64,000 nucleotides of DNA from Neelides folsomi (taxonomy: Eukaryota; Arthropoda; Collembola; Neelipleona; Neelidae). The stretch lies in assembly GCA_034687125.1 (NCBI GenBank), contig JAQGBZ010000131.1, positions 95,710 through 159,709 on the forward strand, given 5' to 3'. The notes beneath the pieces were generated by a model, which was not told the DNA's origin, ran no database searches, and worked only from the letters and a program-made list of their open reading frames with translations. Position numbers and translations under genes: made by a program. This document shows positions 7,627 to 58,737 of this stretch, one piece after another (the stretch's first letter is position 1; each line of letters begins with the position of its first letter).

Positions 7627-7889
7627 TACAGATTATACCAACTTCTCTTAAATATTGGAGTAATGAAAATGAGTTAGTAACTTAGGAAATTTCTCAAATA
7701 AACAAAAAATGAAGTTTCGAAAAATGAAAAATGAAATTCGAATCTTTTCAACACTAAAGAATATTGCAGTAATACCGAGAATTGGGTTTTTATTTAAAGA
7801 ATTAAAAGTTTTTGTTTATTTGAGAAATTTCAAAGTTACTAACTCATTTTCATTACTCCTATATTTAAGAGAAGTTGGTATAATCTGTA
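7627..7889. mobile_element. Young foldback element with near-identical arms
   Basis: The first 80 or so bases (from TACAGATTATACCAACTTCT at 7627) are repeated in inverted orientation up to 7889. Apart from one substitution and a short length difference near AACTTAGGAAATTT versus AACTTTGAAATTT, the arms look identical. The loop of about 100 bp is AT-rich. The near identity implies recent insertion or gene conversion. No transposase or clear target duplication is seen. A transcript through it would form a long hairpin. Confidence 0.7.
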
Positions 7890-13066: not shown

Positions 13067-16000
13067 TTAATCGTCCTTGTCTGAAGGAATGGGAGAGCGT
13101 TCCCCATTTTTCTCAGGAGACTTGGACCTACTTCTGGAATCTCTTCCTTTGCTCACGCTGCGTGAACGGCTCTTGTCCCTGAAAAATGTATGTAAATATT
13201 GAAATATCCCAATTATAAATTATATTAATTTGTTAGCAAATCATAAACGAAAGGGGAAAAATTTAAGAATATTACCTAGACTTGGAGCGAGAGCGAGATC
13301 GGGAACGGCTCCTGGATTTGCTGTTCGACTCCTTCTTCCCTTTGCTTGGCGAACGGGATTTATCTCTTGAATCACGCCCACTGTACAAAAAATTAGAATC
13401 GATAAAAATTATAAAAGACCTCTCATGCAAATAACTATCTTTGAAAGAAGGCTCTTGTTCGAATAACAGGGCAATAATTTTACAAAATTTTGTAATAAAG
13501 CTAATAATGTGTTGTATAATAGAGTATATTGAATTTTTTAAATTTATATTTAAACTTACACGGAGCGAGAGCGGGACTTTGAACGACTTTTTGACCTGCT
13601 CTTGCTCCTCGTCTTTGACTTGCTCTTCGACCTAAAATGCAGCAAAGAATCAGATAACAGATCTAATAGATAAAGCTTCTATCTACTCGACACAATTTAT
13701 TGTACGTATTGCATTCGCATCAATCCTATGCACACCAACAATATTGTAATATTTTAATTGTGCCGTATTAAATTTACGCAGTAATGAACATTCGAGTTCG
13801 CTAGTGCCTGAGATAAAACGAAAAAATGCCCAATTCATGCCGTCACGTCAGAGCCAAGGAAAAAGATGCCCGAAAGAATCCTCAACCCAAGCATTACGGA
13901 TCGACAGTTTTTCCCACTCCTAACATGAATCTGTGTAGGTTTCCAAATTTCCATTTGACACACCGGTCAGAATGAAAATTTGAGGAGTGACGCATTTTTT
14001 TGCCTTACCTCGACCGCGACCTAGAACGAGAATCACGGCGACCACGAGAACGGGATCGAGACCTGCTACGAGAGCGAGACTTGGAACGGGAACGGGATGA
14101 TGAACGAGAGCGGCGACTTCCACGTCCACGTCCACGATCTTCAACCAGCCTCACACGACGTCCATTTAATTCAGTGTCATCCAACTTTTCCAATGCGGCT
14201 TTCAAATCGGAATAACTTGCAAATTCCACAACCCTAATAAAATAAACCATAATTAAGCCTCCCGAAAAACAATTAACAAACTTAAATGGTTAAATTAAAC
14301 TCAGAACACGTTGGGAAAAGGAGTCATCATAAACAACTCAGACCCGAAAGATAAGGATCATCATTAAAATAAAATAAATAATGTGAAATTATTTAATTTT
14401 TTATTACCCTTCATTCCTTCGTTGTTTGTGGGCATCAGCGTATGTGACCTCGCCAGCTTGGCGCATGTAGTCTTTCAGGTCCTTTGAAGACAAAGAAAAG
14501 AAGCGGGTGAGGAATTTAGGTCAAGGGGCTTTCCTAGGTTGTGATAAATCAACGCAACAGTTGAGAATCTATGGTTGAGAAGAAGCAACTTCATGCAAAT
14601 TATTCAATATGCATGAATTTTAGCTCATTGGTTTCATTTATAATAGGTATATTGGGAATGAGTTGATGAAATGAGAGGAAGAGGAAAAGGAAGGTTGGTG
14701 TTTGAAGGAACTTCAACGAGGATTCCACAGGTTCCAGAGCAGGGGTGGACGGCGGAAACCGAGCAGATGACGAAGAGACCCACTCGTCTATTATCATTTG
14801 ATATTACGTGTAGTGTCCACCATCACTTCTTCTTCATATGGCATTTTCCCCGTTCCCTGTTTACCGACTCTCCGTTCTTTCTTCCGATGGAATCCCTTCT
14901 ATCCTTCCTCCAAGACGCGGCCAACAAAGGTCATTATGACACTTGACACGGCAGGGCTCTTTTCCTCACTATTATTCCATCCGTCCTTCATCCTTCAAAT
15001 TGAGTCGAACGAAAGAAAAGGGAGAAGGTACTGTGTGGTAGTAGAAGGGAAAGAGCGGATTTCGGACAAATTGATATAAATGTACTTTATCTACCTCCTC
15101 GCAAGAATCTCGCCTTGTTCTTTTTTTTACTCAAATACTTAATAATAATTGATTAAAAATTCAAATCATTCAAAACAATCGAAATTATCTTCAACAAGGA
15201 ATTAAGTAGATATTTTTTTAAAAAATTTATTAATTGTGCAAAAAGGCATTCAAATAAACGAGTCGTGATGGGTGCGAGGGGTAGGAGGAGAAATAAAAAA
15301 GTTTGTATTCAATGGACAATTTACCTTCCCCAGACAAGAGAGGAACACAAAAGCATTGGCAATCGAAACGGACAATTTGGGGGCTTGACGAACGGACTAG
15401 TCTGGTTGGCCATCTCCTCAGTGGCGGCTAACGATGAACAGAACGGAGGGTCTGAGCCTCCTCCAGCGGCCCCCGCCCAACCCCCCACCCTTTCCCACAA
15501 CACCCTTCATCGTCGTCAGAGATGCAAGTGGCCAAGGCGCGTCTAATCTCAACGTCTCCCTCGAGCGAATTTAGTCATCGTCCCAAGAAGCCTTATGAAC
15601 GACCGACCCAGAGGAGGAAGGACTGTGGGATGGGGCCATTCCTCATCATCACGACCGAGCGACCATGGCTTAGGATTGGATCGGGCTTAGGGCAGAAAAA
15701 GAGTTTACCCATTATCATTCCATTCCAACTTCTCTAGACCTCTTCTCGTACTCTAAACCCAATTTTAATATAATTCTTTGAACTTGAACGAAAGCTTATT
15801 TTTAATGAAAGGTTTCATTGATTAAATTATTTACTGATTAATACTATTTTTAGAGAAGCCTATCTTATGAATGTCTGAGTAATCTATTAAAGTTAATGGG
15901 CAATTTATTCACGCGATTTTGCTCATTCTAGTCTTAACAAATTTGGATTATTCTAACTTAAGTTGTTTTAATCTTCTACGAAAAAGGCTATGAATACAAA

Positions 16001-17726
16001 TTAAAATTATTCATCTATTCATGAAATAATTTTATGTAAATAAAGTATTTAAAAATTTAAAAATTCAATTTATAGGCAATTGAAATGGCTAATGGATTCT
16101 ATGAAATAAATTGTTTCAATATCAACTTAATACCTGACAGGATATTTCTAGGAAAAATGTTTCAAACATAAAGCATTCTTGGGAGAAGGCAGCGATGAAT
16201 GTTTTAAAATATCAAATATCTAACCTTTGTGAATATATGACTAACTTTCGTAATACATTGGAGACTATTCTCAATTCCTCATCTAAAAATATTTAAGCCT
16301 AGGTATATGAAAAAAGTAGTAGATATTAAATGAGGCTCGAAAGGTCTGGCGAAGATCAGCAATTACCTGCCAAGATACGCGACTCGAAAGATTTTCCACG
16401 ATGAGTCTGTATTCAGTCCGCGTTGGTGGCCCATACCTGGAGCAGAAACACATATTTAAAATAGCAAAACATGCTTAGAACCTTTTCAATCAACATAATT
16501 TGTATTTTTAAATCATATATTTACATAGATAAATTTATTATGCTCGTAATAATTATTAATTAATTAATATATAAATAAAGAGTATTTTTTGGAAAAAATG
16601 ATCGATTTCAGTCAGTAGTTTTTAGCCATTTCAGAGGATAGTAGTGCTCATTGTAAAATATAACTCAACTTACTTGTCCGAGCCTCGAGGTGGCCCTCGT
16701 CGTGATCGACCTCGGCCATCCCGGGGCACGCCTCGAGCCCGCTCCACGATCACTCTGAAACAGCCAAAAACAAACCGTGTGAATCTTTCGTCTTTCCAGT
16801 ACGCACTGTTTGGGGCGTCCGCTTCCTCCCGTTGGCTCCCTTCGGTCTCTGTAACCACCACCACCACCACTCCCGCCACTCCCTGTCCGGCGAGAACCAT
16901 AACCTCGGGATGAAGCATGTGCCAATTCGACTACAACTCTACACATCACAGAAATATGTTTAGCTGCCGCCCTCGATTCACATGTCCAACTCTTACCTGC
17001 TAAAATATACTAAATATTACTAATCTCCTTTATATGTAAAAATAAATGAATTGAACATGAGAATGAGTAGCGATAAGTTAATTCGATAATACATTTAGGT
17101 CATTAGACATTACATATCCATCATTATCATTTAGTTTGTAAATTGCTCTTTCACGATTGAAATTAAAAATATTAAAAGTGAACAAATTTACTTTAAAAAA
17201 ATAAAAACCTAAGCCATGCTGCCATAAAAGTGATTCAATGACAAATTTAATCAATAAAGCTTTCGCATAATGCTTTTGCAATATTAATTAACTCAATGGC
17301 GGCTTTTAAGTTGCCCGTGATGTGTTTAAACGAGATGACAATGAATGTATGAAATGTTTTTTTATTTTTAACAATACCTCTCTCCCAGTAAATCCTTTCC
17401 ATTTAGTTCGTAAACTGCGTCATCTGCGTCTCTGTAGTCGTCGAATTCCTATTAGTTAAAGTAAAATTATGAAAATATTCTTAAACATAGTTGAAAACTA
17501 ATTATTTCTCGAGTATACATATTCTAATGTAAAAAAACATTAATTAATGTGAGTTGGAAGATGAGGAAAAAATTACAGAGGTAATGAAAAATGTACTTAC
17601 AACAAATCCATAACCATTTTTAATTAAAATGTCCCGAATCCGTCCGTAACCCTTGAAAAATCTCTCAAGATCTTTCTCCCGGACACCGTATGGTAAGCCG
17701 CCGATGTAGACTCTTGTTCCTCCCAT
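13067..17726 (-). CDS. B52: SR splicing factor, B52/SRp55 (SRSF4/5/6) type
   Basis: Nuclear RNA-binding protein that promotes splice-site recognition. Exons in transcript order: 17726-17601, 17448-17378, then either 16938-16807 (3a) or 16754-16674 (3b), then 16436-16367, 14481-14408, 14233-14009, 13631-13560, 13380-13276 and 13178-13067. All phases close, giving 328 aa with 3a or 311 aa with 3b. RRM1 covers about residues 1-72 (RNP2-like VYIGGL, RNP1-like NGYGFVEF). RRM2 follows a Gly/Arg linker and carries the SWQDLKD signature of two-RRM SR proteins, split over two exons. An RS domain rich in SRSRSR runs to the end. The start is the first ATG, directly before VYIGGLPYG. It is divergently arranged with the coiled-coil gene. 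The family identity is secure; SRSF4, 5 and 6 cannot be told apart as orthologues here. Confidence 0.95.
14482..16366 (-). other. Large intron of the SR gene with a GC-richer block
   Basis: This 1885-nt intron separates the two halves of the SWQDLKD motif. Its flanks are AT-rich, but roughly 14650-15760 is clearly less so and contains stretches such as CCTCCTCCAGCGGCCCCCGCC. Genes of this family commonly carry an unproductive ('poison') cassette exon used for autoregulation. No specific cassette can be fixed by eye, so this is an observation about composition, not an exon call. Confidence 0.4.
16674..16754 (-). other. Alternative exon 3b of the SR gene
   Basis: This 81-nt exon is preceded by CTGTTTCAG and followed by GTAAGT. 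It starts and ends in the same phases as exon 3a. After the arginine codon shared with exon 2 it encodes [20 protein letters not shown], then a short Pro/Arg stretch that joins the next exon as ...[15 protein letters not shown] completes the last beta strand of RRM1 and matches the usual SR-protein form of this segment. Confidence 0.8.
16807..16938 (-). other. Alternative exon 3a of the SR gene
   Basis: This 132-nt exon is preceded by TGTGTAG and followed by GTGCGT. It encodes [17 protein letters not shown], a run of Gly/Ser, and [15 protein letters not shown], joining the next exon as Q-YGPP. Like 3b it completes the last RRM1 strand (RVVVE), so a working RRM needs one or the other. The gap between 3a and 3b is only 52 nt. 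Including both is in frame but would duplicate the strand. Confidence 0.75.
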
Positions 17727-24370: not shown

Positions 24371-24504
24371 TATTATATTTCATTACAGAGCAATTTAGGT
24401 CTGATTTTGAAACAACCGCTTAATTATTTGTATCTAAATGCATGGAAATTATTTTGTGGTTATTTCAAACTCAGACCTAAATTGCTCTGGAATGAAATAT
24501 AGTA
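24371..24504. mobile_element. Short foldback element
   Basis: The left arm TTTCATTACAGAGCAATTTAGG... and the right arm, in reverse complement TTTCATTCCAGAGCAATTTAGG..., pair over about 45 bases through TCTGA(T/G)TTTGAAA(C/T)AACC. The loop is about 45 bases. It lies just outside the right end of the Harbinger element. No coding capacity. Confidence 0.65.
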
Positions 24505-54799: not shown

Positions 54800-55180
54800 T
54801 TATATTCTATTCAGAAAATCCGTGCAGGTGAGTTTGAAAAACATAATTTCCAGAAATACGAATTTCAATTTCACTATTACTATTAATTGTAGTATTTCAT
54901 ATGCAATATTTAAACCAATTCATTACCCATCTACAAAATACATAACATAACTATTTCATTGACAATTCATTTCATTTGAATTTTATTGATGTTTTAATAA
55001 AACAATAAAATAATGAAATTGAGGCCAAAATATAAAATAAACATTAAACTTTTTCAAAAACAATATAAATTAGCATTACTACAATTAATAGTAACAGTGA
55101 AATTGAAATTCGTATCTCTGGAAATTATGTGCGGGTTTTTCAAACTCACCTGCACGGATTTCCTGAATAGAATATAGTAG
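54800..55180. mobile_element. Foldback element with arms of about 90 bp
   Basis: The left arm (TTATATTCTATTCAGAAAATCCGTGCAGGTG...) and the right arm (reverse complement CTATATTCTATTCAGGAAATCCGTGCAGGTG...) pair as far as ATTACTATTAATTGTAGT, with few mismatches and one 4-base indel. The loop of about 185 bp is AT-rich. No coding capacity. It lies between the RIIa gene and enolase. Confidence 0.7.
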
Positions 55181-57719: not shown

Positions 57720-58737
57720 TTTGATTAAATGAGGAGTTTTGTCGTTTAGATTTGATGGTGAATGTTGGTGAGAGAAGAACTAGGTATTTGGGAAATATCG
57801 CCACTCGCACACACCTTGTCCTTGACTTTAAGTTGAAGTTTCCAGAAGGGCATGAGATTGCGCTAAAATGGATGGATGTTTCATACAATGCAATACCGGA
57901 GAGTATGCAGATCTCGCAAAATAATTTCAAGCATTTAAATTAGGTATAATTCTATGAATAATTATTTATTCATGTTATTTAGTATTACTGTATAAAGTAT
58001 CATATTAAGTATTAAGCGTTTCCAATTTATATTTTGTTGGCTACTTGACTATGGTTATTATTTTTGAAACATTACATATATCACGTTTACGATCAATGCT
58101 GAAGTATTATATATATTGAATTTATATGAGATAATACACTTATAATTATAGGAGTGTTTTTAATATATGAGATAATTTATAATAAAACAGAATTATAGTA
58201 GTTAGCGACTAAAAGGAATGGAATGATGTAATATTATTTCATTCATAGGGCATGTAATAAGTATATACAGGATTTTCCAGGATCTACTAAACGGGACTAT
58301 AAACACTTTTTTCTAAATACTGGGCCAATCCACGCAGAAGGTAAAATCGGGATATTGAAAAACCCTTGAGGTTCTCTTAATACGCCCCAAAGTCCTATAC
58401 TTGTAACACGTGATTTTTGTTTTTAGCCATACGCTAAAAACGTTCAACGATCCAAGTCACAAATATGCTTTATGAGTATTAGTTAGAGTATATTTGATAC
58501 TAATATATCATTTGGATCGTTGAACGTATTTAGCGCATGGCTAAAAACAAAAATCACGTGTTACAATTATAGGACTTTGGAGAGTATTAAGAGAACCTTA
58601 AGGGCTTTTCAATATCTCGATTTTACCTTCTGCGTAGATTGGCCTTACTAATAAACATAAATACTTTATAAATCATTCAATGTATTAATAGTAATAAATA
58701 CATATGTTATGTACATAAAAACCTACATATTTAGTTG
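57720..58737. other. Intergenic DNA between enolase and INPP1
   Basis: The enolase promoter must lie in the first part. A plus-strand open frame at 57755-57943 ([20 protein letters not shown]...) is balanced in composition but has no family similarity. The second half is dominated by the long inverted repeat at 58323-58644. Confidence 0.45.
58323..58644. mobile_element. Long inverted repeat, foldback element
   Basis: The left arm (58323-58456, GGCCAATCCACGCAGAAGG...) is repeated inverted at 58512-58644 over about 133 bases with roughly a dozen differences. The pairs include AAGGTAAAATCG(G/A)GATATTG, GGTTCTCTTAATAC, TAACACGTGATTTTTGTTTT and CGTTCAACGATCCAA. The loop is about 55 bases. Just outside, TACAGGATTTTCCAGG (58266) may be an outer end. 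No open frame spans it. It lies 3' of INPP1. Confidence 0.7.

Follow-up and report, generated by a model that had tools for sequence, protein, structure and literature searches.

A B52-type SR protein gene with two candidate alternative exons for the end of RRM1 and a predicted hairpin over the acceptor of one of them

The 64,000-nt stretch of DNA analysed here (the window) carries on its minus strand, from position 17726 to 13067, a gene coding for an SR protein. Its coding sequence is distributed over nine exon positions, the third of which is double and occupied by exons 3a and 3b (Table 1). The encoded protein features a canonical RRM1, a linker, a pseudo-RRM2 with the SWQDLKD motif and an RS-rich C terminus, the layout that defines membership of the SRSF4/5/6 (B52) group. 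Human SRSF6 and SRSF1 are the closest solved proteins among the best 60 of 185 and of 180 matched sequences. The 75-Mb assembly contains one copy of the gene: a 201-aa query with 3a and without 3b matches ten places, six of which are exons of the SR gene and four weaker matches to other RRM genes. Pfam RRM_1 is present in all four forms tested of the protein; the score is alike (~118 bits) for the forms with 3a, with 3b or with neither exon and this model is thus no test of the need for the strand that these exons encode. A search of the segment 12800-18200 at Rfam gathering thresholds gave no match, and a scan for a B52-type protein in two contig collections, neither of them animal, gave 26 viral and 196 genome pattern matches, none of which was confirmed. 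The exon ends agree with those that we take to be the boundaries of SRSF5 (RRM1 end and linker; RRM2 start to SWQ; DLKD onwards). The SRSF5-like exon structure is described as conserved (PMC4379411).

Table 1. Positions in the window of the exons of the SR protein gene, of the gap between exons 3a and 3b, and of the two arms of the predicted helix.
Feature	Positions	Strand	Basis
Exon 1, coding part, RRM1 start	17601..17726	-	gene model; RRM_1 match
Exon 2, RRM1 middle, ends in split codon AG|	17378..17448	-	gene model
Exon 3a, 132 nt: RVVVE strand and 40-aa Gly-rich linker; weak donor (5th percentile)	16807..16938	-	gene model, site scores, shuffles
52-nt gap between 3a and 3b; sole YTNAY motif as candidate branch point (16780, 26 nt beyond the 3a donor)	16755..16806	-	
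Helix 5' arm (predicted): polypyrimidine tract, AG and first 2 nt of 3b	16753..16771	-	inverted repeat, duplex energy
Exon 3b, 81 nt: RVIVE strand and 23-aa Arg-rich linker	16674..16754	-	gene model, site scores
Helix 3' arm (predicted), intron 3	16618..16636	-	inverted repeat, duplex energy
Exon 4, pseudo-RRM2 start (...SRVSWQ), acceptor common to 3a and 3b	16367..16436	-	gene model
Exon 5	14408..14481	-	gene model
Exon 6, RRM2 end and RS domain start	14009..14233	-	gene model
Exon 7, RS domain	13560..13631	-	gene model
Exon 8, RS domain	13276..13380	-	gene model
Exon 9, coding part up to stop codon	13067..13178	-	gene model

The first-pass annotation of this DNA had assigned it to a copepod. 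Copepod mitochondrial genomes are generally strongly rearranged. The mitochondrial contig C742 (15,157 nt, code 5) reads as frames for nad2, cox1, cox2, atp6, cox3, nad3, nad5, nad4, nad4L, nad6, cob and nad1 (cox1 was identified by a family search, the other genes were named from their reading frames; a tRNA scan of the C742 locus found no genes). Gene order and orientation are those of what we take to be the ancestral arthropod arrangement, and the copepod assignment is left without support. The locus most plausibly holds the one SRSF4/5/6-type (B52) gene that an arthropod-like animal possesses; RRM1 would be finished, and the linker supplied, by either of two alternative exons. This explanation, taken as a whole with the helix mechanism described below, has in our view an even chance of being correct.

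The coordinates and phases of exons 3a and 3b (both 2-2) were re-derived as originally claimed. The separation of the two exons by 52 nt, the completion of RRM1 by each exon's own RV(V/I)VE strand (RVVVE in 3a, RVIVE in 3b) and the length of the products carrying 3a (328 aa) or 3b (311 aa) hold equally. Products with both exons (355 aa) or neither (284 aa) are also in frame, so that exclusive use of 3a and 3b would operate without a nonsense-mediated filter. Retention of the complete 3a-3b block (265 nt) was rejected as a coding form; it shifts the frame and leads to an early stop. Splice sites were scored with matrices derived from CCT and myosin genes in this genome. From 23 of 25 rows for CCT and 71 of 101 for myosin, 61 introns could be placed, and the matrices use the 57 left after four poor fits had been set aside. 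On this scale the sites of 3a are weak (acceptor at the 30th percentile, donor ACA|GTGCGT at the 5th) while those of 3b are stronger (63rd and 75th percentiles). Exons that are stop-free, in phase 2, at least 60 nt long, start with R[VIL]x[VIL][EDH] and have sites no weaker than those of 3a were searched in the stretch 17377-16437. It contains two; 5 of 4000 dinucleotide shuffles had at least one and none had two, and shuffling the GC-rich stretch alone gave none in 4000. The exon pair is more than chance, and the sequence supports two alternative coding exons, the choice between which would replace both the final strand of RRM1 and the linker. Published criteria for mutually exclusive exon pairs ask for lengths within 20 aa of each other, for a common frame and splice type, and for similarity (PMC3228551). 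Exons 3a and 3b differ by 17 aa and are alike in frame (phase 2-2) and in splice-site type (GT-AG).

As to similarity, the two exons have RV(V/I)VE in common and their peptides align weakly. The proposal that 3a and 3b arose by tandem exon duplication finds no backing, as no significant similarity extends beyond RV(V/I)VE. The score of their DNA alignment was matched by 397 of 500 shuffles and that of their peptides by 364 of 5000, and three comparisons of the surrounding intron stretches were matched by 475, 314 and 414 of 500. A duplication is therefore unproven. The shared RV(V/I)VE is what an RRM needs at that place, and an old duplication of the exons is possible. At the end of the strand the start of 3b is nearer than that of 3a to human SRSF6 (GERVIVEHARG). 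An excess of GG motifs in 3a that might act as an autoregulatory enhancer was also considered and rejected: counts do not differ from synonymous-codon shuffles for GG (20 versus 20.5, P 0.62), GGA (7 versus 6.0, P 0.40) or GG[AT] (14 versus 11.4, P 0.15). Among the literature matches listed, judged by titles and abstract openings, there is none describing alternative RRM1-end exons in SRSF4/5/6 genes. Insect database models of the B52-type gene may include several versions of the linker; should this be so, the exon pair could be of greater age and wider occurrence than is apparent here.

The first-pass annotation also suggested that the exon choice may change the RNA-binding surface and the linker. 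This applies to the linker, which differs, and not to the base-contacting Glu, which is kept in both exons: the Glu of VVVE/VIVE aligns with E87 of SRSF1, counted along the printed chain. E87 lies in β4 of SRSF1, and its change to Asn makes RRM1 accept U besides C, the base that is also preferred by RRM1 of SRSF4, 5 and 6 and of Drosophila B52 (PMC7813835). Counted up to YGPP, the 3a version of the linker is 40 aa long and includes 13 Gly and 7 Arg; the 3b version has 23 aa, among them 5 Gly and 8 Arg, and contains four RG steps. The SRSF1 linker restrains its two RRMs, its nine Gly were proposed to allow RRM1 binding on either side of RRM2, and poorly conserved linkers were put forward as a possible cause of specificity differences between SR proteins (PMC7813835). 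Linkers of SR proteins also recruit the export factor NXF1, and arginine methylation in those of SRSF1 and SRSF5 affects localization (PMC9022966, a review). The Gly run of the 3a linker is similar to the inter-RRM linker of SRSF1 and the β4 Glu is common to SRSF1 and both exons; the Gly-rich linker would differ here in being optional, selected by splicing (PMC7813835). Since either exon completes RRM1, the protein would keep its domains and the RNA-contacting Glu, while its linker would change from long and Gly-rich (3a) to short and Arg-rich (3b). We infer that the swap alters spacing, flexibility and perhaps export contacts rather than base preference, and with them the geometry of RNA binding. 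A gene swapping this linker alone by splicing would be a natural experiment on the role of the linker. The gene shares with SRSF5/B52 of Metazoa the two RRMs, the SWQDLKD pseudo-RRM and the RS tail (PMC4379411), the placement of RRM1 end/linker and RRM2 start on separate exons (SRSF5 boundaries partly presumed), and a long intron at SWQ|DLKD that contains a candidate poison exon rich in GC (PMC4379411). It differs in that the RRM1 end and linker have a putative second coding exon, which is absent from the available portion of the account in PMC4379411, and the accessible parts of two Drosophila B52 papers (PMC5057162, PMC2940736) make no mention of an alternative linker exon among the B52 isoforms and exons.

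The suggestion that the gap sterically prevents inclusion of both exons holds in one respect: 52 nt is below the length of all 127 introns sampled. It is weakened by the existence of an intron of 54 nt. The sample joins the 61 placed introns, poor fits kept, to 66 whose length was estimated from the gaps between neighbouring exon matches (32 of kinesin genes from 55 rows and 34 of protein kinase genes from 70 rows picked by eye among those listed of 158 found). Applied to the placed introns the estimator is exact in 44 of 61 cases, with errors from -42 to +24. No sampled intron has 52 nt or less, one is shorter than 60 nt and four are shorter than 70 nt. The shortest, read directly, has 54 nt and belongs to an AKT-type kinase gene; another has ~63 nt. 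Introns that are very short and divisible by three in length might have been hidden within a single match and so have escaped sampling; 52 is no multiple of three. Position 27 of the gap is the A of its one YTNAY motif, and in the 54-nt intron such A lie at 30, 34 and 44. Exclusion of the both-in form by the short gap is thus plausible rather than demonstrated, with a thin margin. The gap of 52 nt and the position of the sole consensus branch-point motif, 26 nt from the donor, would both disfavour joining of 3a to 3b. The exclusivity of human OGDH exons has been attributed to branch points situated 25-41 nt away from the donor (PMC7969005), a range that includes the only candidate here. Birds and mammals have, however, 118-131 nt between OGDH exons 4a and 4b, with distant branch points that were mapped, whereas here the whole gap has 52 nt and the branch point is predicted. 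U2AF1 exons Ab/3 offer another likeness, a splicing-factor gene with two alternative tandem exons altering part of a conserved domain (PMC5224494). Those exons are homologous and inclusion of both is lowered by NMD, while in the SR gene the both-in form is in frame and homology is undetectable. The locus would show how a very short gap separates exons in a genome where the shortest sampled intron is 2 nt longer.

Between the 3b acceptor and intron 3 there is a complementarity of 19 positions, spotted in a list of 11 inverted repeats and not predicted in advance. All 19 positions pair (16 Watson-Crick and 3 G-U) and the 116-nt loop of the predicted helix contains exon 3b. The duplex energy is -26.5 kcal/mol, whereas shuffles of the intron average -11.5 (sd 2.1) and 0 of 2000 do as well. 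Two of 541 overlapping 237-nt stretches on the same strand of the window are as good, both covering the helix site itself, and 57 control acceptors of other genes reach at best -21.5 (mean -10.8, sd 3.1), none equalling 3b. In a context of 1101 nt the pair probability of the helix is 0.99-1.00 at all three span limits. The wider fold of 381 nt is not unusually stable (z -1.19, matched by 13 of 100 shuffles), so the claim rests on the single helix. Gapless stems of at least 17 bp on the same strand, with a loop of 60-400 nt and at least 4 G-C pairs, number ten in the window: three foldback elements account for eight of them, and the other two are the stem at 24489-24386 and the 3b helix. The foldback elements are long, near-perfect and MITE-like (7627-7889, 54801-55176 and 58323-58644); the stem at 24386-24489 (minus strand), outside them, is a perfect 19-bp hairpin with a 66-nt loop. 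The 3' arm has two exact copies in 75 Mb, itself included, and a total of six places with at most 2 mismatches (one for the reversed control). It is low-copy and not a dispersed repeat. Its exact copy at G000:C5:507428-507446 has unrelated flanks and no strong partner within ~400 nt.

For 16 splice sites of the SR gene, partners were sought within 600 nt in both directions, and five further pairings were each set against 1000 shuffles. Shuffles as good numbered 19 for the 3a acceptor with intron 2, 2 for the exon-2 donor with exon 3a, 68 for the exon-4 acceptor, 123 for the 3a donor and 359 for the 3b acceptor with intron 2; no claim is made for any of them. The exon-2 donor region (17364-17386, minus strand) that pairs with exon 3a (16807-16938), with 2 of 1000 shuffles better, is one of many pairings examined and possibly a product of chance. 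Competing partners of the intron-3 arm in intron 2 (58 of 1000 shuffles) and in exon 3a (89 of 1000) are not significant, in contrast to the 3b acceptor (0 of 1000), and the arrangement is for this reason not classed as docking-selector.

In the mechanism that we propose, the 19-bp helix would close the 3' splice site of 3b and loop this exon out. When formed, it would keep U2AF from 3b and exon 2 would join 3a and then exon 4, despite the weak 3a donor; in its absence the stronger 3b sites would win. Looping-out of an exon and masking of its polypyrimidine tract are described ways to lower exon use (PMC11802352). The 3b acceptor is transcribed ~135 nt ahead of the completed partner arm, and U2AF could consequently bind before the helix forms. 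Caution comes also from the serpent-type design, in which pairs around each exon contribute to its activation (PMC6071210), so that pairing around an exon may also help it. Intronic pairing around one of two alternative exons likens the locus to Dscam1, srp, MRP and 14-3-3zeta (PMC6071210, PMC11802352); the difference is that here a single predicted helix would hide the 3' splice site itself and the competing partner is not significant. Taken together, the reading of the sequence as two alternative linker exons, with a helix restraining 3b and a gap discouraging inclusion of both, is one that we believe and doubt in equal measure. A hairpin over a whole 3' splice site would be a simple, testable switch. 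Its bolder version is speculative and in our opinion improbable: by opening or closing the helix, the SR gene would toggle its inter-RRM spacer between an SRSF1-like flexible Gly form and a short Arg-rich one, with base preference unaltered and two binding geometries. If this were true, whatever opens the helix, be it the protein itself, transcription speed or temperature, would act back on the splicing programme.

Three other explanations bear on this reading. The one that we consider the least unlikely keeps the alternative use of 3a and 3b, with which it is compatible, and attributes exon choice to site strength and protein factors, the 19-bp complementarity being fortuitous or a foldback remnant. 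The window does hold three long foldback elements, and the exact copy of the 3' arm elsewhere in the genome lacks similar flanks; against a fortuitous origin, pairing of this quality is reached in none of the 2000 intron shuffles and at none of the 57 control acceptors, the complementary bases of the 5' arm are those of the tract, the AG and the exon start, and the 3' arm is low-copy. Rather unlikely, in our estimate, is an arrangement without exclusivity, in which 3b is constitutive and 3a a separate cassette, rarely used: its inclusion would lengthen the protein by 44 residues (both-in, 355 aa), or most transcripts would skip it. Weak sites in 3a and good ones in 3b are what it expects, the both-in product is in frame, the 54-nt intron in the genome indicates that a 52-nt gap may be spliced, and the start of 3b is the one nearer to human SRSF6. 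It leaves the both-in protein with the 3a strand completing RRM1 and 3b adding a surplus RVIVE, whereas two exons that each open with a usable RRM1 strand fit alternatives better; moreover, none of the 127 sampled introns is as short as 52 nt and the helix would oppose 3b, not 3a.

We give little credence to the remaining explanation, namely that 3a, or a longer form of it ending at a donor at 16776, belongs to an unproductive, NMD-coupled autoregulatory exon like the poison exon found in intron 2 of vertebrate SRSF4/6 (PMC4379411). The donor at 16776 (ACG|GTTTGT, minus strand) lies inside the gap and scores at the 75th percentile versus the 5th of the 3a donor. Being 31 nt beyond the latter, it would generate a 163-nt exon with a frame shift and a stop in exon 4. 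In addition, exons of 13-222 nt ending at 16997 have in-frame stops for four of four acceptors (a fifth acceptor gives a 3-nt exon without stop). Exon 3a, on the contrary, is open and symmetric and encodes an RRM strand and an SR-type linker. The SR gene has moreover its own candidate poison exon in the SWQ|DLKD intron, which we take, judging by the SRSF5 exon boundaries, to be the poison-exon intron of SRSF5.

Two further sites in the introns deserve mention. In intron 2, 58 nt before 3a, a juxtaposed acceptor and donor, TATATTTTAGCAG|GTAAGA, is found at 16991-17016 (minus strand), its donor at the 98th percentile. It is one of 2 composite sites and one of 3 donors as strong on both strands of the window, and looks like either a recursive splice site or the terminus of an exon with in-frame stops. 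The SWQ|DLKD intron (1885 nt) contains a GC-rich stretch at 15325-15874 (minus strand) that ends at the 15325 donor (93rd percentile) and has possible acceptors at 15833 (47th percentile) and 15874 (32nd percentile).
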